In this document: in pieces, positions 5,576-30,911 of the stretch
Numbering within the stretch: position 1 is the first letter of the stretch
How the letters are laid out: every line of letters starts with the position of its first letter
Source: Variovorax sp. WDL1
GTDB lineage: Bacteria; Pseudomonadota; Gammaproteobacteria; Burkholderiales; Burkholderiaceae_C
Direction: 5' to 3'
DNA length: 64,000 nt
Assembly: GCF_001541225.1 (NCBI RefSeq)
Contig: NZ_LMTS01000030.1
Location: 1 to 64,000, forward strand
Translations under genes and position numbers: made by a program
Notes under the pieces: model-generated
Database searches by the model: none
Told to the model about the DNA's origin: nothing
What the model saw: the letters and a program-made list of their open reading frames with translations, nothing else

Positions 5576-6667
5576 TCAGGTTGCCGTCGGGTAGTCGGTG
5601 TAGCCCTTGGCTCCGCCAAGATACCAGGTCGCCATGTCATCCGGCGCTAGCGCCAGCTTTCGGGCCATGCGGGCAGGAAGGTCCGGATTTGAGATAAAGG
5701 GCCTACCGAATGAAATGGCGTCAGCCAGTCCGGCATCGAGTGCAGCCTGGGCCTTGAGCGCGTCGAAGTCGGAATTCAACACAAACTTCCCATCGAACGC
5801 CCGGCGCATTGCTGGGCCGATGGGTGGCCGCTCGGCTTGTCCATTGGTCCCCGAAAAGCCAGGCTCACGGATCTCGATGAATGCGATCCCCAATGCTGAC
5901 ATTTCAATCGATGCAGCTTCGAATAAGGCCGTCGGGTTACTGTCATTAACGCCTTTTCGTGCTTCATTGGGCGACAGGCGCACCGCCGTGCGCTGCGCCC
6001 CTACAGCGTCGAGGACCGCAGCCACGACCTCGCGTAGGAACCTGACGCGGTTGCTGATCGATCCACCATACTCGTCGTCGCGCAGGTTCACGCTGTCGCG
6101 CAGAAACTGGTCTATCAAGTAGCCGTTAGCCGCATGCACCTGCACCCCATCGAAATCGGCCGCGGCCGCATTCAACGCAGCGGCCCGATAGTCATCGACG
6201 ATGCGCTGGATCTCGGCGCGCGCAAGTGATCGCGCCTCAACGGCCGGCTGTTTTCCGTTGTAGGTGTAGACGTCCTCGGGCGACGTGGTGGCGGAAGAAG
6301 ACACTGGCTGCCCACGGCCGGGAAGACTGGGATGGACGACCCGCCCCATGTGCCACAGCTGACAAAAGATCTTGCCGCCCTGCTCGCGCACCGCGGCGGT
6401 GATAGGCTTCCAGGCCTCGATCTGTGCCTGGTTCCATATTCCCGGTGCATAGGGCCAGCCCAGGCCTTCGGCAGAGATTCCAGTTGCCTCGGACAGGATC
6501 AGGCCGGCGCCAGCACGCTGTGCGTAGTATTCGACCATCATGTCTGTCGGCACATGATCAGCGGTGGAGCGCGCCCTGGTCATTGGCGACATCAGAATCC
6601 GGTTTGACATTTCGGTCGCGCCGAGGCGGACGGGGTCGAACAATGTAGGCACGGGTTCTGGGCTCAC
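5576..6667 (-). CDS. Old Yellow Enzyme family NAD(P)H:flavin oxidoreductase (ene-reductase)
   Basis: FMN-dependent reductase of activated C=C bonds in enones, also known to act on nitro compounds. The 363 residues cover the whole TIM barrel, from the N-terminal TLFDPVRLGATEMSNRILMS to the FMN-phosphate part ISFGRPFISNPDL near 325. The substrate-carbonyl pair is H178 and N181 in VHAANGYLIDQF, the His/Asn arrangement of yeast OYE1. QLWHMGRVVHPS follows the NemA/XenB type. Start is GTG at 6667. It lies 130 nt downstream of an SDR gene in the same direction, and a LysR gene diverges from that pair, so a regulated two-gene unit is likely. In context it would reduce a cyclic enone before the Baeyer-Villiger step; that substrate is inferred. 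Confidence 0.9.
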   Translation of the reverse strand: MSPEPVPTLFDPVRLGATEMSNRILMSPMTRARSTADHVPTDMMVEYYAQRAGAGLILSEATGISAEGLGWPYAPGIWNQAQIEAWKPITAAVREQGGKIFCQLWHMGRVVHPSLPGRGQPVSSSATTSPEDVYTYNGKQPAVEARSLARAEIQRIVDDYRAAALNAAAADFDGVQVHAANGYLIDQFLRDSVNLRDDEYGGSISNRVRFLREVVAAVLDAVGAQRTAVRLSPNEARKGVNDSNPTALFEAASIEMSALGIAFIEIREPGFSGTNGQAERPPIGPAMRRAFDGKFVLNSDFDALKAQAALDAGLADAISFGRPFISNPDLPARMARKLALAPDDMATWYLGGAKGYTDYPTAT

Positions 6668-6797
6668 TTACGTTGGAAGATGGAAACTGAAAAACTCGCT
6701 TGCGACAACGCCTCAGTCAACGCTGGATGAGGCGCGGGACGCAAGCTCAGCAACAAGCGCGGGAGTTGTGCACTAGGTCCAAAGACGGCGACTAGGG

Positions 6798-7583
6798 TCA
6801 GCTCGGGACCTGGCCGCCGTCCACGTTGTAGCACTGCCCGGTGATATTTCGCGCGCCCGTGGAGGCCAGAAACACCGCCATCGCAGCAATGTCCTCCGCA
6901 GAATTCGCGCGGCCGATGGGTATGCGTTTTTGCGCTTCGCTGACCATTTGCTCCAGCGTGACCCCACTCTCCCGGGCCGCGAGCTCATACACGCTGGTCG
7001 CAAGTTCGGTCAGGGTGGCGCCGGGGCAAATGGAGTTAACGTTGATGTTGTGGCGACCCAACTGCTGCGAGGCCGTCTTGGTCAGGGCAATGACGGCTCC
7101 TTTGCTTGCAGCATAGATCGCGTTGGACGCGCCTGAATAGCCACGACCGGCGATCGAGGCAATGTTGATGACACGACCGCCATCGCCTTGGCGGATCATT
7201 TCACGGGCCGCCGCCTGGATGCAGAAGAACACACCCTTGGCGTTCACGCGGTGGGTCTTGTCCCAGTCTTCCTCGTTGAGATCCATGATGTAGGCTGGCC
7301 GAGTTACGCCTGCATTGTTGACAATGATGTCCACGCGGCCAAACTCGGCAACCGTGCGCGAGACCATGTCGTTGATGCTTGCGACATCGCCGCAGTCTGC
7401 ACGGATGCCCACCGCGCGCGCACCCAAGGCGACTGCCTTTTCGGCCGTCCGCCGGGCCCATGCCTGATCAATGTCGCTGATCGCCAGATCAGCGCCTTCG
7501 GCGGCATAGGCGATGGCGATTGCTTCACCGATACCCGACCCAGCGCCGGTGACGAGCGCGACCTTGCCTTTCAAAGTCTCCAT
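6798..7583 (-). CDS. Short-chain dehydrogenase/reductase (SDR) 1
   Basis: Classical NAD(P)(H)-dependent SDR of 261 residues: cofactor loop GAGSGIG (13-19), NNAG (89-92), catalytic Ser143, Tyr157 and Lys161 (YAASK), and the C-terminal cofactor-proximal GQCYNVDGG. Asp38 in ISDIDQ after strand 2 suggests NAD preference. I start it at the ATG at 7583, preceded by AAGGAA, rather than the ATG 14 codons upstream. It shares a transcript direction with the downstream ene-reductase and is divergent from the LysR gene at 7837. Likely job: oxidation of a secondary alcohol to the ketone or enone used by the reductase (inferred). Its exact substrate cannot be read from sequence. Confidence 0.85.
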   Translation of the reverse strand: METLKGKVALVTGAGSGIGEAIAIAYAAEGADLAISDIDQAWARRTAEKAVALGARAVGIRADCGDVASINDMVSRTVAEFGRVDIIVNNAGVTRPAYIMDLNEEDWDKTHRVNAKGVFFCIQAAAREMIRQGDGGRVINIASIAGRGYSGASNAIYAASKGAVIALTKTASQQLGRHNINVNSICPGATLTELATSVYELAARESGVTLEQMVSEAQKRIPIGRANSAEDIAAMAVFLASTGARNITGQCYNVDGGQVPS

Positions 7584-7702
7584 TCCAGTTCCTTTTTTAT
7601 GAGGCGTCGAGACGGTTAGAGCCATTCACAAAGTGTTCTCACTGATCGAAGTGCAGTTTAGGTGCGGGTGCCATCAGTGCCGACGCTTTAATCGCCAGCT
7701 CC

Positions 7703-7836: not shown

Positions 7837-8757
7837 ATGGCAGAATCCGCCAATTCCCGCTCCCGCCCAAGGGTCAGCGCCCGTCAGATCGAAGCGTTTC
7901 GCGCCGTCATGCTCAGCGGCTCGGCTCGCGGGGCCGCCGAGCTGCTCTACGTTACACAGCCCGTTATCAGCAAGCTGATCGCCCAACTGGAGAGCCGGAC
8001 GGGTTTGACCCTCTTCGTCCGACGAGGCAACGCTATCGTCCCAACCGATAACGCGAAGCTATTGCTTTCGGAAGCCCAGGGGGTCTTTCATGGCATCGAA
8101 CGCTTCGACCGTTTCGCTGCCAACTTGCGCGGCGGCGAGAAAGGCCGGCTCTCAATATTCGCGAGCCCAACGTTGACCAGTGCGGTTATCCCCTTCATCC
8201 TGAAAACACACCTTCGGCATGCTGCGCACCTGGAGATCTTCATCGCCTCCAGACTCATCCGAGACATGCCATCAGATTTGCTTGCCGACAATCAATCGCT
8301 CGGCGTGACGATCTGGCAATGCGAAGCGCCTGGCATCAGTTGCGAAGTGCTCGCCAGCAAGCGGCTCGTTTTGCTCGTCAATCCGGCAAGCCCTCTCGCC
8401 AACCGTCAGCGCCTTCAATTGAATGACGTTCGCTCAGAGCATCTCATCGGCCACCACGAGTCGATGCCGATCGGACAAAAAGTAAGGGAGGCCTTGCACA
8501 AGTTGTCACCCGACTGGCCCATCCGCGTCTCTGTCGACAGCAGTGAAGCCGCATTCTCACTGGTACAGAACAACCTCGGGGTTGCGTTCGTCGATGCGTT
8601 CTCGAAAGACTACCTTCATCAGCGTGGGCTGAAGACGCTCGAAGTCGACATCGATGTCTTCACACACTTGTGCCTCTTGAAGTCGTCCTTCCACCGACCG
8701 ACCGTGCAATGCGAATCTTTCGAGCAAGCCCTCCGCGAGTGGGCTGGCACTGTATAG
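7837..8757 (+). CDS. LysR-type transcriptional regulator 1
   Basis: 306 residues with an N-terminal winged helix (about 13-70; QIEAFRAVMLSGSARGAAEL then VTQPVISKLIAQLESRTGLT), a linker helix, and a two-lobed effector-binding domain from about 95 to the end (for example GRLSIFASPTLTSAVIPFIL). Members of this family usually activate adjacent catabolic genes in response to a pathway metabolite. It is divergent from SDR1/ene-reductase, with a T-N11-A dyad in the gap, and 200 nt upstream of the TRAP transporter genes in the same direction, so either side could be its regulon. It resembles the second LysR at 28064-28972, including a similar SLIQEMPSELL/SRLIRDMPSDLL segment. Confidence 0.9.
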   Translation: MAESANSRSRPRVSARQIEAFRAVMLSGSARGAAELLYVTQPVISKLIAQLESRTGLTLFVRRGNAIVPTDNAKLLLSEAQGVFHGIERFDRFAANLRGGEKGRLSIFASPTLTSAVIPFILKTHLRHAAHLEIFIASRLIRDMPSDLLADNQSLGVTIWQCEAPGISCEVLASKRLVLLVNPASPLANRQRLQLNDVRSEHLIGHHESMPIGQKVREALHKLSPDWPIRVSVDSSEAAFSLVQNNLGVAFVDAFSKDYLHQRGLKTLEVDIDVFTHLCLLKSSFHRPTVQCESFEQALREWAGTV

Positions 8758-8955: not shown

Positions 8956-9969
8956 GTGAACACTGTAAATATAAATCGCCGTGATCTGATGACCGCGGGG
9001 CTCGTCGCCGCCACTGGATCTCTGATCTCATTCCCGACGCGGGCCGCACCCCTGAGCATGAAAGTCGGCCTCTCCGCGCCGGCGACGCACTCTTCAGCAG
9101 TCGGCTTGACTGCCGCAGCAACCGAGATCGCGAAGCAGACCAATGGCGAAGTTCGCTTGGAAGTCTTCCCCTCGGGCCAACTTGGCTCAGACCAAAGCAT
9201 GATCGCGCAGACTCGGCAAGGCTCGCTCGAGCTATACATGGGAACAGCCAGCATATTGGACGGCATCGTCCCGAACAGTGCGATCTGGAACACGCCATTT
9301 GCATTCGCTGATTACGCGGCGATGTGGAAGGCCATCGATGGACAAGTCGGTGCCGTGGTCCGGAATGCCGCACCGCGCGCGGGCCTCAAAGCGTTTGACA
9401 CGACCTGGGACAACGGCTTTCGCCAAATCAGCACTGCAAACAAGCCAATCGCAAAGGTTACTGATTTGAAGGGTCTGAAGGTGCGTGTTCCGGTCAGCGC
9501 TGGCCTTGTCATGTTGTTCAAGGCAATGAATGCCTCCCCAGTGGCACTGAATTTTGCAGAGCTTTATCCAGCACTGCAGACCAAACTGGTAGATGGACAA
9601 GAAAATGCCCTGTCGGTATTTGCAATTGCAAACTTCAACGAGGTTCAAAAATATATCTCGATGACGAATCACGTCTGGGATGGATACGTCCCGTTGACGA
9701 GTGTAGCCTTCTGGAAGACGATACCCGCTGATATTCAGACCATAGTTGCAAATGCAATCAACGGCGAAGCCAAGAAGCAACGACAGGTCTCTGAGGCGCT
9801 TGACAAGACGCTCCGCGCGACGTTGGCAGCTAAAGGGGTCACGTTTGTGGACCCCGATATTGCCGGCTTCAGGGAGCACCTCCGCAGTGTCGGCTTCTAC
9901 AAGGAATGGCGCGAAAAGGTCGGTGAAGCTGCGTGGACGGCGCTCGTGCCGTACGCCCCCGGCCTGTAG
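8956..9969 (+). CDS. dctP: TRAP transporter solute-binding protein (DctP family)
   Basis: Periplasmic receptor of a TRAP transporter, delivering an organic acid to the DctQM permease encoded next. The 337-residue product begins with a Tat-like or Sec signal (NRRDLMTAGLVAATGSLISF, cleavage near TRAAP). The DctP fold follows, with GSDQSMIAQTRQGSLELYMG, TTWDNGFRQIST and KGLKVRVPVS, the last carrying the conserved Arg that binds a carboxylate in this family. Start is GTG at 8956 with GGAG six bases upstream. The permease start is 11 nt after this stop, clearly one operon. The ligand is unknown; by context it could be the pathway substrate or one of its acids. Confidence 0.9.
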   Translation: MNTVNINRRDLMTAGLVAATGSLISFPTRAAPLSMKVGLSAPATHSSAVGLTAAATEIAKQTNGEVRLEVFPSGQLGSDQSMIAQTRQGSLELYMGTASILDGIVPNSAIWNTPFAFADYAAMWKAIDGQVGAVVRNAAPRAGLKAFDTTWDNGFRQISTANKPIAKVTDLKGLKVRVPVSAGLVMLFKAMNASPVALNFAELYPALQTKLVDGQENALSVFAIANFNEVQKYISMTNHVWDGYVPLTSVAFWKTIPADIQTIVANAINGEAKKQRQVSEALDKTLRATLAAKGVTFVDPDIAGFREHLRSVGFYKEWREKVGEAAWTALVPYAPGL

Positions 9970-9980: not shown

Positions 9981-11882
9981 ATGACGACAGACTCCCTTCT
10001 GACTGGTCAAATCCCACCGCCAGCCGCCAAAAGCGCTGGACACCTTAGCGCTCGTGCACCGCGCTACGTCGCAAAACTTCTAATCGAACCGGTTTGCGTA
10101 CTCTTGTTGATCTCGCTCTTTGGGATCGTACTGGCCGGCGCTGTTTCTCGCTATGCTTTCCACGCGCCTCTGGTCTGGGTCGATGAGCTCGCTGGCTTTC
10201 TGTTTCTCTGGTTTGCCATCTTAGGCGCATCCATCGCAAGCCAGAGATATGAGCACATGAGGATGCCATTTTCGGCAGAATTTTTCTCGCCCCGAACCAC
10301 TCGTCTGCTGGACACACTCGGCGGGGTGCTCGTAGTGGTTCTGCTAGGCATCCTGCTGCCAGCCGCTGTTTCCTACACGGAATCGGAGTGGGTCGTCATC
10401 ACACCAACGCTCGGATTGCCTAATGGCATCAAGGGGGTCGGCCTAGTAGTCGGTCTTGCGCTACTTCTGTTTTTTGATCTGTGCCGTCTCTGGTCACAGA
10501 GCTCAGCGCGAGATCTAATCATTTCCACGATCATCGTTGCCATCTTTTCATTTGTGGCGTGGAAGATGGCAACGCTGTTTGGCGATTTGGGAAAAGTGAA
10601 TCTGGTCATCTATTTGGTGTTCGGGATTGCATTGTGCATTGCGATTGGTGTGCCAATCGGCTTTGCGTTCGGAATTGGGGCTACCTCCTACGTCGTTTTT
10701 GCGACGAGATTCTCAAGTGAAGTCATCGTAGGCCGGATGGATGAAGGCATGTCGCACGTCATGCTTGTCGCCATCCCACTGTTCGTTGCGTTGGGCGCCG
10801 TGATGGAACTTAGCGGCGTCGCGCGGGCCATGGTGAGGTTTCTATTTTCCATCTTTGGAAGTGTGAAAGGCGGATTAAATTACGTCATTATCGGAGCGAT
10901 GATGTTGGTTTCGGGAATATCCGGCTCCAAGATTGCTGATATGGCAGCGGTGGCTCCTCCGCTTTTTCCTGAAATGAACAAGCGCGGCTCCTCCAAGCCC
11001 GAGCTTGTCGCCTTGCTCGCGTCCACCGGTGTTCAAACGGAGACGATTCCACCCAGTTTTGTGCTGATCATTTACGGATCGCTGACCGGGGTTTCCATCG
11101 GCGCGCTGTTCACCGGTGGACTGCTGCCTGCCCTGTTTGCTGGCCTGGTGCTCGCTGCCGTGTGCGCCTACAAGGCGCGGAAGACTACTGCAACCGGTGA
11201 AGCCATCAGCTGGGTTGAGATAGTCAGTAGTCTCAAGTTCGCCCTTCCAGCGCTCCTGCTGCCTTTCATGGTGCGTACGTTGGTCGTGGAGGGAGTGGCC
11301 ACGGCTACCGAAGTCGCGACATTCGCGATTGTCTACTGTGCATTGGTTGGCATCTGTTTCTACCGAGCACATGACTGGAGTCAGCTATACGGGCGATTGG
11401 TACAGGCGACCTCTCTATCTGGCGCGATCATCCTCATCCTTGGCACGGCGACTGGCGTGTCCTGGGCTCTGTCTCAATCTGGATTCTCACGCGAGCTGGT
11501 GCAACTCGTGGTCGACTTGCCCGGCGGTCGGACCGCCTTCATGGGTGTATCGATCATTCTCTTTGTAATTCTAGGCTCGGTTCTCGAAGGTATGCCCGCG
11601 GTGGTCCTGTTCGCTCCACTCCTCGCGCCCATCGCTCAGAAATTCGGGATCAACGACGTTCACTACGCAGTAGTCGTTATTCTCTCTCTCGGACTAGGCC
11701 TCTTCGCCCCCCCGATTGGCGTTGGCTTCTATGCAGCTTGCGCCATTGGTGATGTGAATCCCAAACACGTAGTGAAGCTGATGTGGCCCTATCTACTGGC
11801 CTTGTTAATGGTCATTGTTGTGCTGGCAGCCTTTCCTTGGCTCACCACAGCGATGCTGCCCGAATCCATGCGCACTGTCTAG
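9981..11882 (+). CDS. Fused TRAP transporter permease (DctQ-DctM)
   Basis: Inner-membrane part of a TRAP transporter driven by an ion gradient. About 633 residues: an N-terminal DctQ-like four-helix module (about 35-185, with WVDELAGFLFLWFAILGASI) continuous with a DctM large subunit of about 12 helices (from about 205; GIALCIAIGVPIGFAFGIG, FVALGAVMELSGVAR, GSVLEGMPAVVLFAPLLAPI, FAPPIGVGFY). Fusion of Q and M is known in a subset of TRAP systems. The ATG at 9981 is chosen because an upstream in-frame extension overlaps the DctP gene and has no export or membrane character. It follows the receptor gene by 11 nt and forms the complete transporter with it. Confidence 0.92.
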   Translation: MTTDSLLTGQIPPPAAKSAGHLSARAPRYVAKLLIEPVCVLLLISLFGIVLAGAVSRYAFHAPLVWVDELAGFLFLWFAILGASIASQRYEHMRMPFSAEFFSPRTTRLLDTLGGVLVVVLLGILLPAAVSYTESEWVVITPTLGLPNGIKGVGLVVGLALLLFFDLCRLWSQSSARDLIISTIIVAIFSFVAWKMATLFGDLGKVNLVIYLVFGIALCIAIGVPIGFAFGIGATSYVVFATRFSSEVIVGRMDEGMSHVMLVAIPLFVALGAVMELSGVARAMVRFLFSIFGSVKGGLNYVIIGAMMLVSGISGSKIADMAAVAPPLFPEMNKRGSSKPELVALLASTGVQTETIPPSFVLIIYGSLTGVSIGALFTGGLLPALFAGLVLAAVCAYKARKTTATGEAISWVEIVSSLKFALPALLLPFMVRTLVVEGVATATEVATFAIVYCALVGICFYRAHDWSQLYGRLVQATSLSGAIILILGTATGVSWALSQSGFSRELVQLVVDLPGGRTAFMGVSIILFVILGSVLEGMPAVVLFAPLLAPIAQKFGINDVHYAVVVILSLGLGLFAPPIGVGFYAACAIGDVNPKHVVKLMWPYLLALLMVIVVLAAFPWLTTAMLPESMRTV

Positions 11883-12007: not shown

Positions 12008-12931
12008 GTGGTGATTTGTGTTGTTGGAGGAGCCGGATTTCTCGGCCGGCGCGTCATTCGCAAGCTGCTGTCCCGTGGACACGATGTGGTCTGCATGGAC
12101 ATTGCCGGCTTGCAACTCGATGTCCCTGGATCCCAGTTTCGCAGTATTCGAGTTGACGTCTGCGACTTCGAGAGCGTGTTGTCGAGTTTCCTCACGTATC
12201 GACCTGAAATAGTGATACATCTCGGTTTTCTTGTTGGAGACTATTCGCCGCGTCAAGCGATGAGAGTGAACGTCCTCGGATCGGACAATTGCTTCGAAGC
12301 AGCACATCTGGCCGGGGTTGATCGAGTGCTTTTCTCCAGCTCGATCGCAGTCAATGGCGGACAACGCCACTACGGCCATCGCCCGGTTGTTGAGGACGAT
12401 GCGTTCGTTGCCGAGACCCAGTACGCCGTACACAAGGTATTCAACGAATGGCAAGCGAAGGAATACCGTGAGAAGCACGGAATGACAATCACCGCCATCC
12501 GCCCCGCGAATATCTCAGGAGTGGACAAGATTCTTGGATCAGTTGATCACGTGGCATGCATCGTCAACCCGGCCAAAGGAATAAGTGCACGGTTCAAGTA
12601 TCGTGATCAAATGAGATGCATTGTCTACGGAGACGACATAGCCGAGCTATTCACGCGTGTCGCCGAGAAGCGGCGGCCCGCATTTTCCGTTTACAACTCC
12701 GGTGGCGAAACCTTGAGTCTCGGCCAGCTTGCCGATATGGTTAAGAAGTACATTCCCGACGCCGACATCGCATTCGATCACGAAACGGGTAGCGAGGAGA
12801 ACCAAAAGGGTGCTGTGGCCTATGTCTATGACCGCACACGGATTTGGGAGGAGTTTGGGGTCGACTACCCTCCGTTTGAGCAGCGACTTGGTCAGATGAT
12901 CGAGATGATTCGTCTCGACACTGTCACGTAG
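12008..12931 (+). CDS. NAD(P)-dependent epimerase/dehydratase family protein
   Basis: Extended SDR of 307 residues. N-terminal Rossmann motif GGAGFLG (residues 7-13 region), acidic residue after strand 2 (CMDIAG), catalytic YAVHK motif near 140, and a C-terminal substrate domain with DRTRIWEEFGVDYPP. Family members act on nucleotide sugars or other alcohol/ketone substrates; no sugar-nucleotide genes are nearby, so a dehydrogenase role in the cargo pathway is possible. Start is GTG at 12008, placed by GGAGG just upstream. It follows the TRAP permease by about 125 nt and precedes a DMT permease in the same direction. Specific substrate unknown. Confidence 0.8.
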   Translation: MVICVVGGAGFLGRRVIRKLLSRGHDVVCMDIAGLQLDVPGSQFRSIRVDVCDFESVLSSFLTYRPEIVIHLGFLVGDYSPRQAMRVNVLGSDNCFEAAHLAGVDRVLFSSSIAVNGGQRHYGHRPVVEDDAFVAETQYAVHKVFNEWQAKEYREKHGMTITAIRPANISGVDKILGSVDHVACIVNPAKGISARFKYRDQMRCIVYGDDIAELFTRVAEKRRPAFSVYNSGGETLSLGQLADMVKKYIPDADIAFDHETGSEENQKGAVAYVYDRTRIWEEFGVDYPPFEQRLGQMIEMIRLDTVT

Positions 12932-13008: not shown

Positions 13009-13890
13009 ATGAGAGTTCCCGCAGGTGCAACAGGCCGCGTCTTGCCCATGGTCATCGTACTGACCTTGGTGTGGGGCACCAGTTGGGTGCTGTTCCCGAT
13101 CGCTCTGCGCGAGATCTCGATCTGGACCTTCCGCGCGGTGTCGTTGCTTGCATCTGGTGTTTTACTGCTTCTGGCGGCACGTGCCAAAGGACTGTCACTG
13201 TTCGTGCCGGTTGAGCAGCGCTGGCCACTGACGCTTGCGGCGTGGGTCTACCTGGTGATCTGGAACATATGCACGACCTATTCGTCCCTCCTTATTCCAT
13301 CGGGCCAGGCGGCAGTTCTCGGCTTCACGATGCCGATCTGGGCGGCGCTGATCTCATGGCTGCTGCTGGGTGAGAGGCCTTCCACACGGCTGTTCGTCAG
13401 CATTCTGCTGGCAGGAACCGGCGTTGCGTGCCTTGCCTATGCCGCACGCGGCACCTATGCCAAAGCACCACTTGGTTTCTTGCTGGGGCTGTCAGGAGGC
13501 ATCGCTTGGGCCGCTGGCACCTTGATCCTCAAGCGCGCGGGACTGACGGTCCCGCTGATCGTCTCGACAGGCTGGCAACTGATCATCAGTGGCATTCCGA
13601 TTGCGATCGCCGCCCTGTTGATGGCGAACGGCCATCCCTTTGCTCCATCGTGGAGCACCGTGATTGTGATTGCCTATCTAACGGTCGTGCCGATGGCCCT
13701 GGGTGGTGTCGTGTGGTTTTCAATCGCTGGCGCACTCTCGCCTACGCTTGCTGGCCTTTCCACCGTCATGGTGCCGATGGTGGCGATGGTGACCGGCGCT
13801 TGGGTGCATGGCGAGCCGCTCGGGCCGATGCAACTGACAGCGATGGCTTGTTGTGGTGCATCTCTCATGTTGGTTCTTGTCAAGAGCTAG
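13009..13890 (+). CDS. EamA/DMT-superfamily membrane transporter
   Basis: Inner-membrane exporter or importer of the ten-helix drug/metabolite family; 293 residues with two EamA repeats. The first begins VLTLVWGTSWVLFPIALREI and includes SGQAAVLGFTMPIWAALISW; the second begins LGFLLGLSGGIAWAAGTLIL and includes TLAGLSTVMVPMVAMVTGAW. The length is normal. The stop codon TAG is formed by the CTAG target duplication of the IS element inserted at 13891, so the native C-terminus may have been a few residues different. It is the last gene of the right-pointing TRAP-epimerase-DMT set. Substrate not deducible. Confidence 0.85.
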   Translation: MRVPAGATGRVLPMVIVLTLVWGTSWVLFPIALREISIWTFRAVSLLASGVLLLLAARAKGLSLFVPVEQRWPLTLAAWVYLVIWNICTTYSSLLIPSGQAAVLGFTMPIWAALISWLLLGERPSTRLFVSILLAGTGVACLAYAARGTYAKAPLGFLLGLSGGIAWAAGTLILKRAGLTVPLIVSTGWQLIISGIPIAIAALLMANGHPFAPSWSTVIVIAYLTVVPMALGGVVWFSIAGALSPTLAGLSTVMVPMVAMVTGAWVHGEPLGPMQLTAMACCGASLMLVLVKS

Positions 13891-22819: not shown

Positions 22820-23788
22820 TTACAGGTCCAGCACGAGCCGCGCAGACTTTGCGCGCGAACAGCATGGTGTGAACTGATCATTGGCGGCCTGCTCGTCCGG
22901 TGTAAGGTAAAAGTCGCGGTGGTCCGGAATACCCTCGATGACGCGCGTCAGGCAGGCACCACAGATGCCCTGCTCGCAGGACACGGTGATACCAACACCA
23001 GCCGCCTGGAGCGCCTGCACAACAGTCAGATTCGAATCGACTTTGATCACCCTGCCTGAGCTGGCTAGCTGAACATCGAATGCCGATCCAGGACCCGCCA
23101 TCGCGTCACCGGCCGAGAAATACTCATAGTGAAGCGCGGCTTCATCCCATCCTTGCAGGCGAGCTGTCGACAACACGGCTTCCATGAAGCCCGCAGGACC
23201 GCAAACATAGAGGTGGGTGCCTTGCTCAGGATGCAGCAACGCCTTAAGGTCAAGCTGCTGCTCTGGTGCGCCGTCGTCGAAATGAAAGGACACATTCTTT
23301 CCAAGCGCTGGAGAGGCCGCGATCAACGCCCGGAACGCAGTGCTTTCAACCGAGCGCGTGCAGTAGTGCAAGTCAAAACTGCTTTGGAGTGCGGCCAGCC
23401 GCTGCGCCATGCAGAGAATCGGGGTCACTCCGATGCCCCCAGCAATCAGCAGGTGGCGCCTGGCGTCGGATGCCAGCGCAAAGTGGTTGCGCGGTGCGCT
23501 GATCTCCAATACATCGCCCTCATTGACCAGTTCGTGCATCGCGCTCGATCCGCCTCGCGATGTCACTGTTCGCAAGACTGAGATCAGATAGCGGTGGCCC
23601 TCGGACGGATCGTTGAACAACGAATACGACCGGGTGATGCCTCCCGGCAGGTGGACTTCGATGTGTGATCCGGCCGAAAACGGCGGCAGGATGCCGCCAG
23701 TCGCCGCAACGAATTCGAAGGTCTGTATGCCGGAGGCCTCGAATTGCTTGCGGGCGACGCGCACCAACAGATTCGATCGATTCTGCAA
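22820..23788 (-). CDS. VanB/phthalate-dioxygenase-reductase-like ferredoxin reductase
   Basis: Class IA oxygenase reductase passing electrons from NAD(P)H through FMN to a plant-type [2Fe-2S] cluster. Order: FMN/FAD-binding β-barrel (HLPGGITRSYSLFNDPSEG with the RxYS flavin motif), NAD domain (LLIAGGIGVTPILCMAQRL, HLYVCGPAGFMEAVL), and C-terminal ferredoxin with CEQGICGACLTRV plus a fourth Cys near FTPCCS. Length about 322 fits the family. I prefer the TTG at 23788 with AAGGAA just before it; the frame can extend to a GTG at 23845. The expected Rieske oxygenase partner is not encoded in the window, which is odd: it may be lost, or encoded elsewhere. Between a Bug receptor gene (29 or more nt upstream) and BVMO (276 nt downstream). 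Confidence 0.88.
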   Translation of the reverse strand: MQNRSNLLVRVARKQFEASGIQTFEFVAATGGILPPFSAGSHIEVHLPGGITRSYSLFNDPSEGHRYLISVLRTVTSRGGSSAMHELVNEGDVLEISAPRNHFALASDARRHLLIAGGIGVTPILCMAQRLAALQSSFDLHYCTRSVESTAFRALIAASPALGKNVSFHFDDGAPEQQLDLKALLHPEQGTHLYVCGPAGFMEAVLSTARLQGWDEAALHYEYFSAGDAMAGPGSAFDVQLASSGRVIKVDSNLTVVQALQAAGVGITVSCEQGICGACLTRVIEGIPDHRDFYLTPDEQAANDQFTPCCSRAKSARLVLDL

Positions 23789-23874: not shown

Positions 23875-24840
23875 CTACTGCTTCGATGCCTTGGCAATCT
23901 GCAGCCAGCGCGCCACATTTCCGGGTATCTGGGCGTTGAAGGCCTGGGCATCCGCAAAGTCGGGCGCGAGTTGCTGCATGGCGCAGAACTCCTTGAATGC
24001 GGAGGTGCCGGCGATCTTTACCAAACTATCTGACAGCCTGTTGATGATCGGCGCGGGGGTACCTACAGGCGCGAGCAGTGCTAGAAAGAACACGGCCTCG
24101 TAGCCCGCGACACCCGCTTCGGCAACCGTTGGGACATCGGGTATCCCCTCCAGCCTGCGCTTGCCCGTTTGACCGAGAGCGCGCAGGCGGCCAGCTTTCA
24201 CGAGAGGCAAGGCCGTCGAGGTGCTTTGACACGTGAAGTCGACTTGTCCGCCAACGGCATCTGTGGTGGCGCCCGCTGTTCCCCTGTACGGAATGTTCTT
24301 CGCTTCCGTGTGCGTCATCTGGTTCAGCAAGGCACTGCAAAGATGCGTCGTACTGCCGCTGCCAGACGATCCGAACGTGACCTGTCCGGGACGGGATTTC
24401 ATGTCCTGCACCATGTCCTCCAGGGTCTTGTAGGGCGAGCTTGCAGGGACGACGACCATGTTCGTTCCATTGGCTAGCCGTGCAACCGGCGTGAAGTCCC
24501 TTTCAGGGTCATAAGGCAACGCACCTTCTGCGACGACCTTGCTCAGATAGTGGTGCACAGAGGTCAGCAACAGCGTGGTGCCGTCCGGCGTCGACTTCGC
24601 AACGAAATCCGCTCCGATGACGCCGTTTGCGCCGACCTTGTTCTCCACAACGACGTCCGTTCCTAAGCCGTCGCGGAGGGGCCCCGACAGATAGCGGGCC
24701 ATCAAGTCTAGAGACGATCCGGGCGAAGCCGGCACGATGATGCGAATGGGACGGCCCGCAGGCTGCGCCCAAAGGCACGGGGTTGCGAACCAAGACGCGT
24801 GGACCGCGTATTGCAGCAGGGCTCGGCGATTGATTTTCAT
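23875..24840 (-). CDS. Bug-type tripartite tricarboxylate transporter solute-binding protein 2
   Basis: 321 residues. N-terminal signal KINRRALLQYAVHASWFATP (cleavage near LWAQP), then GRPIRIIVPASPGSSLDLMA, VVVENKVGANGVIGADFVAK and TPDGTTLLLT, the standard Bug-family sequence of motifs; GTAGATTDAVGGQVDFTC is the second-lobe pocket region. Like the first Bug gene it has no membrane partners nearby. It differs widely from the receptor at 19909-20874, so the two are unlikely to share one ligand and are not a recent duplication. Cupin 2 ends 24 nt upstream, so the two genes are probably co-transcribed. Confidence 0.88.
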   Translation of the reverse strand: MKINRRALLQYAVHASWFATPCLWAQPAGRPIRIIVPASPGSSLDLMARYLSGPLRDGLGTDVVVENKVGANGVIGADFVAKSTPDGTTLLLTSVHHYLSKVVAEGALPYDPERDFTPVARLANGTNMVVVPASSPYKTLEDMVQDMKSRPGQVTFGSSGSGSTTHLCSALLNQMTHTEAKNIPYRGTAGATTDAVGGQVDFTCQSTSTALPLVKAGRLRALGQTGKRRLEGIPDVPTVAEAGVAGYEAVFFLALLAPVGTPAPIINRLSDSLVKIAGTSAFKEFCAMQQLAPDFADAQAFNAQIPGNVARWLQIAKASKQ

Positions 24841-24864: not shown

Positions 24865-25614
24865 TCAGGAATAGGCCGACGCCCGTGGCGGAGTGAACAG
24901 AAAGATCGCCTCGGCGCCCTCCGGTCCGGCTGTGAGGCGAGGCAAATCGTCAGGGCTGGAGGCAAAGACGCTTTCCCAAGCCGACATCTGCCCTTGGGCA
25001 TGCTCGAGCTGGCCGGCTAGCAGAACCACAAAGGCGCCCTGAGCCGCAGCGGGGAATGGTGTCTCCGCGACAGCGCCCGGAGGCAGTTGAAGCAGGCGCG
25101 CACCCACGCCGTCCGAGCCCACAGGAATGGCCTCGACGGTCCGGGTCGCCCCCAGCGCGATTCGTTCGGCACCTGACATTGCGACAAGAGGAGCAGAAGT
25201 GGCGTTGCGCTTGGGTCCTCGCTGCATCTTCTCGCGTGCCTCTCTCGCAAACAATATGCCGGTGTCCAGCACCGGGCGTATCGTGAGATACTGGATACCA
25301 TTTTCCCCGGCCACCAGGGGTCCGTAGCCGGTATAGGCACCCGCGTAGTGCACGGTCACCGCCTGCAATGTCTCCTGTCCGATGCGGCCGCCGCCGCCAA
25401 CGAACAGCTGAAACTGGTTCTGGCGATGGAAGTGCGGTTCAACGACCGTGTTGGGTGGTTGCTCGATGAGGAAAATCGTCGGAGAGAGCGTTGGATCAGC
25501 ACCGCTTTCCATCCACTCCGATTTGTGATACGGCAAATCACCAGTTTCTTGCGTTATTGCAAGCTGCCGCCGTTTGCTTGCGGCCTGCGCCCGGGTAGAA
25601 CTGAATACGTGCAT
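24865..25614 (-). CDS. Cupin domain protein 2
   Basis: 249 residues, two cupin-like halves. The first carries a HxHxxxQ-type cluster in VVEPHFHRQNQFQLFVGGGG, plausible metal ligands; the second half (LLQLPPGAVAETPFPAAAQG, AFVVLLAGQLEHAQG) has lost most His. No enzyme of known function can be named; ring-cleaving dioxygenases, isomerases and sensor-type cupins all share this fold. AGGAG stands upstream of the ATG at 25614. It heads the sub-cluster cupin-Bug-VanB-like reductase. Not a close relative of cupin 1 at 15023. Confidence 0.72.
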   Translation of the reverse strand: MHVFSSTRAQAASKRRQLAITQETGDLPYHKSEWMESGADPTLSPTIFLIEQPPNTVVEPHFHRQNQFQLFVGGGGRIGQETLQAVTVHYAGAYTGYGPLVAGENGIQYLTIRPVLDTGILFAREAREKMQRGPKRNATSAPLVAMSGAERIALGATRTVEAIPVGSDGVGARLLQLPPGAVAETPFPAAAQGAFVVLLAGQLEHAQGQMSAWESVFASSPDDLPRLTAGPEGAEAIFLFTPPRASAYS

Positions 25615-25753: not shown

Positions 25754-26719
25754 TCAGCGGTCGTCTTTGATATCGCCATTGCAGAAAGAATTTCTGACGG
25801 CCGCACGGTAGTCATGCTTGAGGCGCTTCAGGAATGAAGTATCACCGGCGCGCTGAAAACTGTGATAGGCGCCCGGATAAACATGAATTTCGGCTGATAC
25901 CCCCGATTGATTGAGCCGCAGTGCAAAATCAACATCCTCCTCGAGGAATAAATCCAGCGAACCGACAGCCAAAAACGTTGGAGGAAGTCCGTTCAAACTA
26001 CATGAATTGCCGGCGGCGGCATATGTCGGAATATCGACCTGCCCATACAAATTACCGAGATAGGCTTTCCAAGCAAAAATATTGCTGCCTTTGGTCCATA
26101 TGAATTCTCCTGAAAATGGGTTGCTTTTTCTTTTTATTTGATCCATGGGGTACTCGAGCATAGGTGCGATCAGGATCAGGAGGACGATCGAATAAAGACC
26201 CTCATCTCTCGCACGCAACGCCAGACTGGCCGCCAGACCACCACCCGCACTCTCGCCTTTAATAGCAATACGCGTCTTGTCGATCTGCAGCAGCGCCGCG
26301 TTGTGATACAGCCAGGCCAGCACTGCATGACAATCGTCCAGTGCAGCCGGGTATGGAAATTCCGGCGCAAGACGATAGGCAACGGAAACAATTGCACAGC
26401 CGCACGACAAGGCAAGTTCGATGTTTTCCTGAATATTGTCTTCGGGTTTGCCCAATAAATAGCCGCCGCCGTGAATATGAATAATTACCGGAAGCGCCAT
26501 CTTTTTAGACACTGGCCGAAAGACAAGCACGCGAATAGGCTGGCTTCCGCTATTCCACTCGATGTAGCGCTCCTCCACCTGAACTTCTTCAGTACCCCTG
26601 ATGTCGGCCGCAGGGCGGCTACCGCGTAGAAAGACGAGGCGTTCCTGCGTCATCTCGAGCGTGGGATATTGATCCAAAAATCCAGTCAACTCGGGATGCA
26701 CCAAATGACGAGTAGTCAT
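25754..26719 (-). CDS. Alpha/beta-hydrolase of the HSL (GDXG) family, probable esterase/lactonase
   Basis: Ser hydrolase of 321 residues. Oxyanion-hole motif HGGG (83-86), nucleophile elbow GESAGG (Ser157), acid in SLDLFLEEDVD (about 256) and His286 in GAYHSF: a complete triad in hormone-sensitive-lipase order. Family members cleave carboxylic esters, and the rhodococcal monoterpene epsilon-lactone hydrolase is a known HSL-type member. This gene lies in the same cluster as a Baeyer-Villiger monooxygenase, so lactone or ester cleavage after ring expansion is the natural suggestion (inferred). ATG at 26719 is used; the frame can extend 33 codons without homology. Local base composition is visibly more AT-rich than the surroundings, hinting at separate origin. 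Confidence 0.88.
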   Translation of the reverse strand: MTTRHLVHPELTGFLDQYPTLEMTQERLVFLRGSRPAADIRGTEEVQVEERYIEWNSGSQPIRVLVFRPVSKKMALPVIIHIHGGGYLLGKPEDNIQENIELALSCGCAIVSVAYRLAPEFPYPAALDDCHAVLAWLYHNAALLQIDKTRIAIKGESAGGGLAASLALRARDEGLYSIVLLILIAPMLEYPMDQIKRKSNPFSGEFIWTKGSNIFAWKAYLGNLYGQVDIPTYAAAGNSCSLNGLPPTFLAVGSLDLFLEEDVDFALRLNQSGVSAEIHVYPGAYHSFQRAGDTSFLKRLKHDYRAAVRNSFCNGDIKDDR

Positions 26720-27110: not shown

Positions 27111-27881
27111 TCAGCGTTCGAGAAGCCCGCCAACGACAAAGCCGCCGTCCACAGCCAGCACCTGCCCGGTGATGTATGAACTTTGCTCCGAAGCCAAAAA
27201 AGAAACTGCAGCAGCAATTTCGTCTGCCGTCCCATAGCGGCGCATGGGAATTTGGCTGTGATAAAGCGCCCGCGTCTTGTCGGAATGACTCGCGCGTGTG
27301 AGGGGCGTATCGACCGGGCCCGGTGCGACTGCATTGCAAGTGATTCCGGAAAGAGCAAGTTCAATCGCTATCTGTTTGGTAAGCGAAATGATCGCCGCCT
27401 TGGACGGGCCGTATGCGGTACGCCCTACTGATGCCTTGATCCCCGCGATGGAGACAACATTGACAATGCGGCCCCAGTTCTCGCGCGCCATCATTCGTGC
27501 GGCATGTTGGGAACACAGAAAGGTCCCGGTGACGTTGACTTGCATCACCGCTTCCCAGTCTGCGAGAGAATAGTCAAGAAAGTAATTACCGCGCGCTATA
27601 CCTGCATTGTTGACCAAGATGTCGCAGCGACCGAATTCGCTTTCGATCTTGGCGAAGCCAGTAGACACCGATCCCGAATCACTGACATCCATGCAGAGGG
27701 ATGCAGCCTTAAACCCGGCTGCATGCATTCGCTTCACGGCGTTCTGTGCTCCTCCATCGTCCTTGTCGCCAATGACCACACTTACACCGCTGCGGCCGAG
27801 GTGATGGGAGACGGCCTCTCCGATGCCGCCAGCGCCACCGGTTACTAGGGCGACTCGATTTTTGACAACTGGCTCTTCCAT
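27111..27881 (-). CDS. Short-chain dehydrogenase/reductase (SDR) 2
   Basis: 256 residues, classical SDR: GGAGGIG cofactor loop (15-21), Asp39 in IGDKDD suggesting NAD(H) preference, NNAG (91-94), Ser144, Tyr157 and Lys161 (YGPSK), and TGQVLAVDGG near the end. It diverges from SDR1 enough to suggest a different step (FabG-like sequences such as GRIVNVVSIAGIKA). I prefer the ATG at 27881 over the upstream TTG at 27899. A LysR gene ends 182 nt upstream in the same direction. Likely to oxidise a hydroxy group in the degradation route, for example the hydroxy acid released by the hydrolase; this is inference. Confidence 0.85.
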   Translation of the reverse strand: MEEPVVKNRVALVTGGAGGIGEAVSHHLGRSGVSVVIGDKDDGGAQNAVKRMHAAGFKAASLCMDVSDSGSVSTGFAKIESEFGRCDILVNNAGIARGNYFLDYSLADWEAVMQVNVTGTFLCSQHAARMMARENWGRIVNVVSIAGIKASVGRTAYGPSKAAIISLTKQIAIELALSGITCNAVAPGPVDTPLTRASHSDKTRALYHSQIPMRRYGTADEIAAAVSFLASEQSSYITGQVLAVDGGFVVGGLLER

Positions 27882-28063: not shown

Positions 28064-28972
28064 TCAGGGAAGACGCTCGTAACCGAAGGATTCGGCGGAA
28101 TTGCACAGAAATTCAACAAAGCGTGCGGACAGGGAGGACAGCGGCGAGAACTTCGAAGTGATCAGGTATGCGAAAACCGGGATGTCTACGTGGATGTCCC
28201 GCACTTCCAGTCCAGCCCATGCGTCGTCATCCACGCTAAAGCTGTATACAAGCGCCACGCCGACACCCCGCCTTGCTAGCGCACAGGCGATGTCAGACCG
28301 GCTGACTTCCACGATGGGATCGGCGACTGCACCTGCGGCCTGGAATCGCTGGTTGATCTGGCTGGTGACGAACTGATCACTCATGAACGAAATCAGGGGC
28401 AGGTCCTTGAGATCGTCGATGGCCACGCGGTCCAGGGCTGCCAACCTGTGCCCCTTAGCGAAGGCAACCTTCAAGCGCCCAGTGAAAAGTGGCACGCAGT
28501 CGAGATTCGGATGATCGATCGGCCAGATGGAAAGACTGAACTCGGAAGATTTTCCAAGGAGCTCGGACGGCATCTCCTGGATCAGAGACGTCTTCACCGA
28601 AAACTGGACGCTTGGATCAGATTTGACAAAGTCGCTAATTGCAGAGGGAATGACGCTGAAGCTCAATGACGGGCTCGCGCAAAAAGCTACGCGCCCCCGC
28701 GCTGGGAGGCCCATTTTCTGAATCACCATTTCAACGCGTTCGGCCGCGTTGAAGACCTCACTCACGTCCCTGAACAGGGCGAGCGCATTCTCGGTCGGGC
28801 GCAAGGCGCCGCCAGTCCTGATGAACAGCGCGAATCCGATGCGCGACTCCAAGTGCGCCAGAGTTCGACTGACCACCGACTGGGAGACGAAGAGCATACG
28901 GGCAGCTGCGCTGACCGAGCCGGCCAGGATGATGGCTCGGAAGACCTCCATGTGGCGAAGCGTCATTTTCAT
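28064..28972 (-). CDS. LysR-type transcriptional regulator 2
   Basis: 302 residues from ATG 28972: winged helix (TLRHMEVFRAIILAGSVSAA then FVSQSVVSRTLAHLESRIGF), linker, and effector domain (GRVAFCASPSLSFSVIPSAI; VSRSDIACALARRGVGVALV). It belongs to the same subgroup as LysR 1 at 7837, with matching segments in the sensing domain, so the two may respond to related metabolites. It is in tandem with SDR2 and not divergent from any gene, which is less common for this family. An N-terminal extension of 20 residues is possible but lacks a start signal. Confidence 0.88.
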   Translation of the reverse strand: MKMTLRHMEVFRAIILAGSVSAAARMLFVSQSVVSRTLAHLESRIGFALFIRTGGALRPTENALALFRDVSEVFNAAERVEMVIQKMGLPARGRVAFCASPSLSFSVIPSAISDFVKSDPSVQFSVKTSLIQEMPSELLGKSSEFSLSIWPIDHPNLDCVPLFTGRLKVAFAKGHRLAALDRVAIDDLKDLPLISFMSDQFVTSQINQRFQAAGAVADPIVEVSRSDIACALARRGVGVALVYSFSVDDDAWAGLEVRDIHVDIPVFAYLITSKFSPLSSLSARFVEFLCNSAESFGYERLP

Positions 28973-29613
28973 CAGAACATGCCCTTGGATTCGGAAGATC
29001 CACAATATTTGATCATCGAGGTCCTCATCCACGAAGACCTGTGCCTGTCACACCTGCTACGCTGGCTTGGTTCGCGAACTACAGCATGTGGACATCACGC
29101 TCTACTTGTAGCCGGGCTTCGCGTCAGGGTGGAGATGAGATCGTCCTCGATGGCTTCGCTGACCCTGCTCAATGACATGGCCGAACCCGATGCCGGCGCA
29201 AGGAAGCCGGGGCGAGGCCCGCCCGATATGCGTACGCGAGGCAAAAAGGGCCGATAAATCCGCAGCGCCCGCGTCGAACACGACAAACGAACGCTTCCTA
29301 GACTGGCCTCCACCTGGATGGCGCAGGCGACATGCACCTGTCAGGCGTTGCTTCCTGGCCTTGCGGGGCTTGCCGACCATCCCGCAGCATCTCTCGGCCC
29401 CTGCCTCAGCGGGCTCCCTTCTATCGCGTGCTGCCACGCGCCTACGAGCGGTGCCGCAGCTGCGATCCTTGCGGCGGAGGTCTTTCGACGTAAGTTGGGT
29501 CGCCGGCTTGCGCCATTGCAAGCGCGGTGCGAGCCCTTGCCGTGAAGCAAGCGCCAGCCAGCGATCCGATCGTCGCAGGGATGTTCCGATTCGGCTACGC
29601 GGTTCCGCAAACG
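28973..29613. other. Stretch without a recognisable gene
   Basis: About 640 bases between LysR 2 and the beta-hydroxyacid dehydrogenase gene. Overlapping Arg/Pro-rich frames of 130-170 codons exist on both strands but none resembles a known protein or has a good ribosome-binding site. I see no IS ends or tRNA. It may be decayed coding DNA. The promoter of the LysR gene should lie at its left end. Confidence 0.4.
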
Positions 29614-30513
29614 TCACCTTGCAGGCTGTTGATTGAGCAGGAACTGATAAACGATTCCGTTGTCCTGGTCGCCATGGCCTGCATTGGCGCAGAGCTGGAA
29701 CAGGTGCGTCGCAGCGCCGCCCAGCACCGTGGCCGCGCCGGCTTCCATTGCTGCTTCTTGCGCCAACACCATGTCTTTCAACATCAGCTTTGTGGCAAAG
29801 CCGTTGCTGTAGTTGCGGCTGCTCGGCGATGTCGCGACGAGACCCGGGACGGGGCAGCTTTTGGTCAAGGCGAAGGACTGGGCGCTGCCCGACGATGCAA
29901 TGTCGAAGAAGACCTTGTCTTCAACACCCAGCTTGCGCGCTAGCACGAACGCTTCACTGATAGCGATCTTAATGATGCCCGCGGCCATGTTGTTGCAGAT
30001 TTTGGCCGCCTGCCCGGCTCCAGCCGGGCCCGCCAGCACGAGGTTCCTTCCAATGCCTTCAAGGACTGGCTTCACCAGGGCAAACACTTCAGCATCGCCG
30101 CCGACCATAATGGCCAAACTGCCCGCCTCCGCGCCACCAACCCCGCCCGACACAGGTGCGTCCAGCATGCGAACGCCTTTTGCCTGCGCCATGGCGTGCA
30201 ACCTGCGCGCGCTGGGCACGCCCGTGGTTGAACAGTCGATCAGGATATGCGACTTCGTGGCGTTGGCGATGATGCCGTCTGGTGCCTCGAACATGCCGAC
30301 CACGATCGGGCCATTCGGCAACATCGTGAAGATGATCTCCGAACGGGCCATGAGGTCGGCGATGCCAGTCGCGACGGTTCCGCCATGAGATGCAAATCGA
30401 GCCAGGGACTTCTGCGACAGGTCAAAGCCGCATACGACGTGCCCTTTGTTCAGCAGGTTTTCGGCCATGGGCAAACCCATGGCGCCGAGGCCGATAAAGC
30501 CGATGTTTGCCAT
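29614..30513 (-). CDS. Beta-hydroxyacid dehydrogenase, 3-hydroxyisobutyrate dehydrogenase family
   Basis: NAD(P)-dependent oxidoreductase of 299 residues acting on beta-hydroxy acids or semialdehydes. N-terminal Rossmann loop GLGAMG (8-13), the family signature DAPVSGG (118-124), and catalytic Lys171 in AAKICNNM; the all-helical C-terminal domain is complete. Family members include 3-hydroxyisobutyrate, tartronate-semialdehyde and succinic-semialdehyde enzymes; the sequence alone does not choose. It starts 11 nt after the carboxymuconolactone-decarboxylase-like gene, a clear two-gene unit. It could oxidise a downstream hydroxy acid of the cargo pathway. Confidence 0.88.
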   Translation of the reverse strand: MANIGFIGLGAMGLPMAENLLNKGHVVCGFDLSQKSLARFASHGGTVATGIADLMARSEIIFTMLPNGPIVVGMFEAPDGIIANATKSHILIDCSTTGVPSARRLHAMAQAKGVRMLDAPVSGGVGGAEAGSLAIMVGGDAEVFALVKPVLEGIGRNLVLAGPAGAGQAAKICNNMAAGIIKIAISEAFVLARKLGVEDKVFFDIASSGSAQSFALTKSCPVPGLVATSPSSRNYSNGFATKLMLKDMVLAQEAAMEAGAATVLGGAATHLFQLCANAGHGDQDNGIVYQFLLNQQPAR

Positions 30514-30524
30514 GGTCGACTCTC

Positions 30525-30911
30525 TTACGCCTTGGGAATCAAGTTCAGCTGGTTGAGAACTTCCTCTGCAGCGCGAAAGGCCTCAACGCCGGACGGCACT
30601 CCGCAGTAGATGGTGGCCTGAAGAAGTACTTCCTTGATCTCGTCCACCGTACAGCCATTGTTGATTGCACCAAGCACATGCATCTTGAGTTCAGCGCCTT
30701 TGCCGAGGGCCGTCAGCATGGCTAGCACCAGCATGCTACGTGTACGGGCGTCAAGTCCAGGCCGACCCCAGATCGTTCCAAAACAGTATTCCTCGACAAG
30801 GCCCCGCATTTCGACGTTGAAGGCATTCTGGGAAGCTTGGCGCTTCGCAAAATACTCCGCTCCAAGCACCTTCTGCAGTATCGAGAGGCCTAGTTCTTTG
30901 GTTTGATGCAT
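30525..30911 (-). CDS. Carboxymuconolactone decarboxylase (AhpD-like) family protein
   Basis: 128 residues covering the whole small helical domain: YFAKRQASQNAFNVEMRGLV, WGRPGLDARTRSMLVLAMLT, AELKMHVLGAINNGCTVDEI and KEVLLQATIYCGVPSGVEAF. The LDARTRS...LxxHxxxAxxxG pattern matches gamma-carboxymuconolactone decarboxylases (PcaC-like). The CxxC of AhpD peroxidase partners is absent, favouring a decarboxylase or lactone-acting role. ATG at 30911 (MHQTKELGLSIL) is chosen over an upstream in-frame codon at 30953. First gene of a unit with the beta-hydroxyacid dehydrogenase. Confidence 0.82.
   Translation of the reverse strand: MHQTKELGLSILQKVLGAEYFAKRQASQNAFNVEMRGLVEEYCFGTIWGRPGLDARTRSMLVLAMLTALGKGAELKMHVLGAINNGCTVDEIKEVLLQATIYCGVPSGVEAFRAAEEVLNQLNLIPKA

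Follow-up and report, generated by a model that had tools for sequence, protein, structure and literature searches.

The window analyzed here, 64,000 nucleotides of contig C84 of the 8.14 Mb genome of Variovorax sp. WDL1, contains a catabolic island (positions 5,576 to 30,911) with a Baeyer-Villiger monooxygenase (BVMO) and an alpha/beta hydrolase of the HSL type. We give an even chance to the reading that this is a mosaic on a large plasmid, put together from pieces of several origins and now decayed in part, with a ketone-cleaving BVMO and HSL core. The DNA directly shows the gene content, two truncated genes, a reductase without its partner and, for several genes, their affinities in sequence; the working core is most likely the BVMO together with the HSL-type hydrolase. 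A core that oxidizes and then hydrolyzes, taking a ketone to an ester and the ester to an alcohol and an acid, is the best reading because 7 of 18 related Comamonadaceae loci have an HSL-type gene no more than 5 kb from their BVMO gene. A first-pass annotation of this DNA had proposed one pathway for degrading an alcohol or enone that is cyclic and perhaps terpenoid. Its ketone-to-ester-to-hydrolysis core is supported by the same 7 of 18 loci. Its single coherent cyclic or terpenoid route is not supported: the BVMO is nearer to PAMO and STMO, the Old Yellow Enzyme (OYE) is little linked to it, the acyl-CoA arm is broken and the reductase is an orphan.

The plasmid location suggested by the first-pass annotation was borne out. 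Window bases 5500-30000 match WDL1 "plasmid 3" (NZ_LR594691.1) at 100.0% identity in a single piece of 24,501 bases, an agreement between two WDL1 records that are not necessarily independent reads. This plasmid is 565,873 bp long, and the source of the strain is given as linuron-contaminated soil. The annotation of the identical record is concordant with our family searches of the window proteins, and the gene types named in the first-pass annotation were found where it had placed them. The island further encodes a VanB-type reductase, two cupin-like proteins (cupA and cupB), an epimerase-type dehydrogenase and a DMT transporter, which were not on its list (Table 1).

The monooxygenase is a genuine type I BVMO, as had been proposed, and its motifs are intact. 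Two GxGxxG Rossmann motifs and the sequence FxGxxxHxxxW[PD], which is the fingerprint of type I BVMOs, occur at residues 24, 194 and 168, respectively; the fingerprint reads FAGPVYHTGKWP, GGTWYWNRYPGARCD is also found, and a conserved Lys-Arg pair is present. The catalytic arginine is kept, with FGVKR in the window protein aligning with FGTKR in PAMO, and we take this residue to be PAMO Arg337. The loop GPGSPS.., which differs in cyclohexanone monooxygenase (CHMO), aligns with PAMO ungapped. Against PDB structures, the window BVMO scores 609 bits with PAMO (1w4x) and 597 with STMO (4ap3/4aos), sharing 52.5% and 52.7% identity over nearly the whole length, as compared with 445 bits for Thermocrispum CHMO and 423 for OTEMO; on these scores, a kinship with CHMO or OTEMO was rejected. 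That comparison is one of PDB structures, and monoterpene ketone monooxygenases as such fall outside it. In a 73-row tree, the window BVMO and 19 Bradyrhizobium proteins form one group (100/99), nested in a larger one of 56 rows to which PAMO and STMO also belong (100/100); the tree is midpoint-rooted, leaves out L097 and L098 (matches too short) and has no CHMO row, CHMO being set apart by the bit scores. The enzyme thus belongs to the PAMO/STMO group, but it differs from both namesakes in sitting in its own group with Bradyrhizobium proteins and amid Bug-type transport genes. Matches at E ≤ 1e-120 occur in 27 of 299 Comamonadaceae genomes, own included, the best other at 54% identity, and 131 of the 132 plasmid records that match at E ≤ 1e-60 are below 60% identity.

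The hydrolase has the features of its class, an HGGG oxyanion motif at residue 83 and a GxSxG motif, GESAG, at residue 155. The first-pass annotation had suggested comparing the BVMO, OYE and hydrolase with characterized enzymes. For the BVMO, this comparison pointed to PAMO and STMO, and it gave an enzyme of the N-ethylmaleimide reductase type as the nearest PDB entry for OYE and structures labeled lipase, heroin esterase and esterase for the hydrolase.

The neighborhood of related BVMO genes was surveyed in 63 loci (L040-L102, of which 61 had been selected by their BVMO). The 23 queries represented each gene once, apart from the small acyl-CoA dehydrogenase subunit, ACADS, which had two. A neighbor was counted when it lay ≤5 kb from the BVMO with E ≤ 1e-10, and the loci from the genome_contigs set span 3.7 to 21.6 kb. 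In the 18 Comamonadaceae BVMO loci, we counted the FabG-like short-chain dehydrogenase/reductase (SDR) SDR2 in 11, HSL in 7, Bug in 3, CaiB and the 3-hydroxyisobutyrate dehydrogenase type (HIBADH) in 2 each, and cupB, the large acyl-CoA dehydrogenase subunit (ACADL) and OYE in 1 each, with VanB in none. The 43 genome_contigs BVMO loci gave SDR2 in 8, ACADL in 7, CaiB in 6, Bug in 4, HSL in 2, and neither OYE nor cupB. As a background, no HSL gene was found ≤5 kb from CaiB in 13 loci, which were chosen by CaiB and not at random, and one of which (L143) is only 6.4 kb long. None of the 63 loci reproduces the full gene set beyond distant identity. These counts lend moderate support, at the level of gene neighborhood, to a partnership of BVMO and HSL with no fixed larger set around it.

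In the proposed mechanism, the BVMO would insert oxygen next to the carbonyl of a ketone, most likely, by analogy with its PAMO and STMO relatives, a side-chain (aryl or acyl) ketone, and the HSL-type hydrolase would release an alcohol and a carboxylic acid from the ester. Conversion of an alcohol to the ketone, or oxidation of the alcohol released, could fall to SDR2 and perhaps also to SDR1. A carboxylate would be the ligand of the Bug-type proteins, and a PimFBCDA-like set on contig C6 could replace the broken acyl-CoA arm. In bisphenol F degradation (PMC12724174), BpfC and BpfD follow the same order of chemistry that we propose here, with a BVMO taking a ketone to an ester ahead of an alpha/beta hydrolase; there, a two-component oxidoreductase makes the ketone, whereas none is apparent in the island.

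Several observations weigh against this reading. The gap between BVMO and HSL in the window is 3.2 kb, with three genes between them, and one of the seven Comamonadaceae HSL matches (L053) spans 100 residues only. No HSL gene lies within 5 kb in the 19 Bradyrhizobium BVMO loci of the enzyme's own group, and the genome_contigs loci overall have 2 of 43. An HSL-type match also occurs ≤5 kb from TRAP genes in one of four contexts (L159), so it is not unusual for HSL to accompany other catabolic genes. Having PAMO as the nearest structure is not specific on its own, because the L036 BVMO, which is outside the group, also matches PAMO first by a small margin (466 bits versus 427 for CHMO). The best NCBIfam model for the window BVMO is a sesquiterpenoid BVMO, pentalenolactone D synthase (306 bits, cut-off 1100), and BVMOs are promiscuous enzymes. 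The BVMO of G192:C17 (L046) is surrounded by genes of the ACAD, CaiB, HSL, SDR and Bug kinds, 27-37% identical to the window proteins, and G044:C83 (L113, L114) holds two BVMOs with HSL, SDRs, cupB, Bug, CaiB and ACAD. Such gene sets are real clusters, so the island may descend from one, and all of its genes may formerly have served a single pathway. We found no expression data for the island genes.

The cluster on G044:C83 also encodes a luciferase-like monooxygenase, a flavin reductase and a CoA ligase, and with its PAMO-type BVMOs the stretch G044:C83:75000-114800 is a promising place to look for a ketone or terpenoid pathway not described before. Two Bradyrhizobium BVMO loci (L102 and L061; 10 open reading frames scanned) hold transport and unrelated genes that give no hint of a substrate.

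Decay is seen in the acyl-CoA arm. Of the two acyl-CoA dehydrogenase genes and the CaiB-type CoA-transferase named in the first-pass annotation, only ACADL is intact; ACADS is frameshifted and truncated, and CaiB is truncated. Aligned with three intact relatives, ACADS runs in one frame from 17885 to ∼18526 and in another from 18553 to 18867, the frame change falling between 18526 and 18553, and 46-50 C-terminal residues are lost. The CaiB homology, again with three relatives, begins at 19863 (19884 with one of them) and extends down to 18865, with 63 C-terminal residues lost. The two homologies abut tail to tail within three bases, 18865-18867. For neither gene does NZ_LR594691.1 annotate a protein, and tags RS37280 and RS37285 are skipped there, in an annotation table that carries no pseudogenes.

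The best models for ACADL and ACADS are PimC and PimD, below the curated cut-offs in both cases. CaiB relatives 60-76% identical are found in 49 genomes besides that of WDL1 (with it, 50 of 299 Comamonadaceae at E ≤ 1e-110), and in the loci fetched from 13 of these 49, ACADL lies ≤5 kb from CaiB in 10. The gene order in these ten is ACADL, ACADS, ∼1 kb and CaiB, with a Bug gene adjoining CaiB; in one locus (L144), an enoyl-CoA hydratase gene stands between ACADS and CaiB, and thiolase, FadB-like, ligase and electron-transfer flavoprotein genes flank the set. The annotated genes of the island include no hydratase, thiolase or ligase. From these comparisons, ACADL with the broken ACADS and truncated CaiB looks like the remnant of a PimCD-like operon for dicarboxylate beta-oxidation. 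The island is thus like the pimFABCDE system of Rhodopseudomonas palustris and its beta-proteobacterial homologues (PMC12543098) in its ACADL and ACADS remnant, but it differs in having only the large subunit intact, a frameshifted small subunit and no other pim-type genes. In that source, the PimCD-like pair of Ralstonia sp. CL21 is linked to strong fitness defects on C8-C12 dicarboxylic acids and has syntenic homologues in three other beta-proteobacteria. Contig C6 of the WDL1 genome carries FadB-like, thiolase, ACADL, ACADS and ligase genes, the PimFBCDA-like set mentioned above, and its ACADL is 70% identical to the plasmid counterpart. With two of its genes broken and this second set present, the plasmid ACAD and CaiB copy looks redundant and is probably dead. 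On SRS16 plasmid 3 (L127, 5198-8720), an ACADL-ACADS pair precedes a convergent CaiB gene, each with an annotation of normal length, in the orientation of the broken set in the window and at 33-45% identity.

The VanB-type reductase has lost its usual company. Its reading frame is intact, and of the 299 Comamonadaceae genomes, 114 have a match at E ≤ 1e-70, that of WDL1 among them. Among 18 of the 19 best other genomes (all but G246), relatives 63-69% identical have a Rieske-domain gene on the same strand ≤∼1.7 kb upstream in 17, and in the eighteenth, G131, the contig starts upstream of the reductase. The WDL1 genome has 30 Rieske-domain places, none of them on contig C84. With one Rieske query, no clear Rieske remnant was found in the window; the best match, 47 residues at E 0.04, was rejected. 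Compared with two-component VanAB-type Rieske oxygenases, where the reductase adjoins its oxygenase gene, the island has the reductase without the oxygenase component.

Table 1. Genes and gene remnants of the island and its two flanks, in window coordinates
Feature	Position	Strand	Remarks
KfrA-like plasmid DNA-binding protein, left flank	4077..5204	+	
OYE (alkene reductase), N-ethylmaleimide-reductase type	5576..6652	-	Intact
SDR1, classical SDR	6798..7583	-	Annotated "glucose 1-dehydrogenase"
LysR regulator 1 (LysR1)	7837..8757	+	
TRAP substrate-binding protein DctP	8956..9969	+	
Fused TRAP permease DctQ-DctM	9981..11882	+	
NAD-dependent epimerase/dehydratase family protein	12008..12931	+	
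DMT family transporter	13009..13890	+	
IS5-family transposase remnant	13906..14625	+	5'-Truncated; profile positions 74-285 of 285
cupA, Cupin_7 (ChrR cupin-like) protein	15023..15814	-	
ACADL, PimC-like acyl-CoA dehydrogenase large subunit	16646..17875	+	Intact; TIGR03204 429 bits, cut-off 624
ACADS, PimD-like small subunit	17885..18867	+	Pseudogene
CaiB-type (class III) CoA-transferase	18865..19878	-	Truncated
Bug1, TctC-type solute-binding protein	19909..20859	-	
Type I BVMO	20891..22543	-	PAMO/STMO group
VanB-type reductase	22820..23788	-	FAD/NAD and [2Fe-2S] domains; no oxygenase partner
Bug2, TctC-type solute-binding protein	23875..24840	-	
cupB, cupin-like protein	24865..25614	-	Likeness by eye; 249 aa
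HSL-type alpha/beta hydrolase	25754..26719	-	Abhydrolase_3; HGGG and GESAG; GC 51%
SDR2, FabG-like classical SDR	27111..27881	-	
LysR regulator 2 (LysR2)	28064..29032	-	
3-Hydroxyisobutyrate dehydrogenase (MmsB)	29614..30513	-	TIGR01692 320 bits, cut-off 291.6
Carboxymuconolactone decarboxylase (CMD)-family protein	30525..30911	-	PcaC-like, below PcaC cut-off
KfrA-like paralogue, right flank	31453..32562	+	

The composition of the island is uneven. GC content is lowest in HSL, at 51%; the TRAP and epimerase genes are at 54-56%, the CMD gene at 55%, SDR2 and LysR2 at 57%, LysR1 at 58% and the remaining island genes at 59-64%, against 69-70% for the flanking KfrA-like genes. Since the GC is mixed among genes, a mixed origin of the island is the simplest reading. 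For the IS5-type remnant, no protein is annotated in NZ_LR594691.1, where tag RS37305 is skipped. The flanking genes, which we take to be KfrA-like, share 66% identity as proteins and 74% as DNA in a gapped comparison. They bracket the catabolic stretch, and the island was perhaps inserted between duplicated backbone genes. No long DNA repeats (≥60 bases, 16-base seed) were found within the window.

The left half of the island, with SDR1, LysR1, the TRAP genes, the epimerase-type dehydrogenase and the DMT transporter, is probably a separate module for organic acid uptake. The TRAP binding protein is matched in 111 plasmid records, own included (E ≤ 1e-60), and four contexts of the 14 others listed were examined. 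Each of them has SDR genes nearby, two also have genes for thiolase and CoA ligase, and transketolase genes occur in one. None of the four has a BVMO match, and an HIBADH-type match occurs in one other than that with the HSL-type match. OYE is probably an independent acquisition. It is 62-63% identical to Bosea and Methylobacterium proteins and is rare in the family: at E ≤ 1e-130, two of the 299 Comamonadaceae genomes have it, WDL1 being one. In G039, the remaining window proteins give no match within 20 kb of OYE, and on the Bosea plasmid other island gene types are not annotated within 7 kb of it. Membership of OYE in a conserved BVMO cluster was rejected on these findings and on the counts given above (1 of 18 and 0 of 43 loci). 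The epimerase-type dehydrogenase found no match in any other plasmid record (E ≤ 1e-30) or in any other genome among 180 Comamonadaceae, own included (E ≤ 1e-60).

Set against the mosaic with a BVMO and HSL core are four other accounts of these genes. In the one closest to the first-pass annotation, the substrate would be an alcohol or enone with a ring, perhaps a terpenoid; an SDR would make the ketone, OYE would reduce the enone, the BVMO would form a lactone, the HSL-type hydrolase would open the ring, and CaiB and ACAD would carry the dicarboxylate through beta-oxidation. Cyclohexanone and monoterpenoid-ketone pathways, with CHMO, OTEMO or the Rhodococcus monoterpenoid lactonase, share their reaction classes with the island, and every reaction type of the route is encoded there. 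The PimCD-like remnant suits a dicarboxylate, which is what ring opening should finally yield. The sesquiterpenoid model, a match of SDR2, among many SDR models, to a cyclohexanecarboxylate-pathway SDR (201 bits, cut-off 350) and the Comamonadaceae cluster on G044:C83 also speak for it. We nevertheless judge it unlikely: the enzyme classes are present, but the downstream arm is broken at both ACADS and CaiB, the BVMO is nearer to PAMO and STMO than to CHMO or OTEMO, OYE is hardly linked to BVMO genes, and MmsB, which scores above its curated cut-off as a 3-hydroxyisobutyrate dehydrogenase, points to a substrate of that type. A cyclic or terpenoid substrate is possible and is not favored. We also give only a small chance to the absence of any joint function, with the island being a scrap-yard of independent modules (TRAP, BVMO, HSL, mmsB-CMD and OYE) brought together by successive insertions and deletions, a number of the modules being dead already. 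Such an origin would fit the mixed GC and sequence affinity, the IS5 remnant, the tail-to-tail joint, the orphan reductase, the lack of the full set in any of the 61 BVMO loci searched and the HSL-type genes near TRAP genes without a BVMO. It sits poorly with the operon-like spacing on one strand (BVMO, Bug1 and CaiB 30-31 bp apart, cupB and Bug2 24 bp apart), with the recurrence of HSL near BVMO in relatives and with the intact frames of BVMO, HSL, SDR, OYE, MmsB and CMD.

It is distinctly improbable, in our estimate, that the right half (CMD, MmsB, SDR2, HSL, cupB, Bug2, BVMO and Bug1) is a working, undescribed route in which a carboxylate-bearing ketone is imported via the Bug proteins and cupB does a metal-dependent step. 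We give very little weight to a pairing of the VanB-type reductase with a Rieske oxygenase encoded elsewhere, by which the island would make an aromatic hydroxy-ketone for cleavage by the BVMO; the intact reductase frame and the 30 Rieske-domain places would allow for it, but the partner is close by in 17 of 18 genomes with relatives and is gone here.

Among the remaining right-half genes, cupB has no Pfam or NCBIfam match, and its single-sequence fold (mean pLDDT 33) was unusable. It is matched in 11 plasmid records at E ≤ 1e-10, own included, and five of the other ten were examined. It directly follows a Bug gene, with mmsB before the Bug gene, in the near-identical contexts of SRS16 plasmid 4 and PBL-E5; a single gene separates Bug from cupB in Cupriavidus pinatubonensis, and on SRS16 plasmid 3 cupB is near an OYE-type gene and two genes from a Bug gene. 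Direct adjacency to Bug thus holds in three of five annotated plasmid contexts, window included (two being near-copies), the fifth other record (KK10) being unannotated there. In G055, cupB lies beside a pyrimidine gene set (label from reading of the open reading frames) and the contig end. Plasmids of Variovorax and Cupriavidus repeatedly have this gene next to, or a short way from, a gene for a Bug solute-binding protein.

Elsewhere on the same plasmid, genes of the heavy-metal resistance type (CzcA/CusA RND, P-type ATPase and cation diffusion facilitator) adjoin the island (L009 1-9146 and L122, NZ_LR594691.1 147636-176274), and a polyketide synthase and a non-ribosomal peptide synthetase are encoded at L122 42521-49901 (NZ_LR594691.1 from 198520). 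Our literature search found no published account of this island, and the words "monooxygenase" and "Baeyer" are absent from the main text of the WDL1 transcriptome paper (PMC5911999).

The island is ordinary in kind, a BVMO and a decaying mosaic of known type. Our results correct an attractive but over-coherent reading as one pathway: the genes make up a mosaic, in which two truncated genes meet tail to tail and a reductase stands without its oxygenase. The BVMO, from a Bradyrhizobium-like branch near PAMO and STMO, is useful for biocatalysis tests, and in a strain isolated from soil contaminated with linuron, a plasmid-borne dicarboxylate operon is seen decaying.

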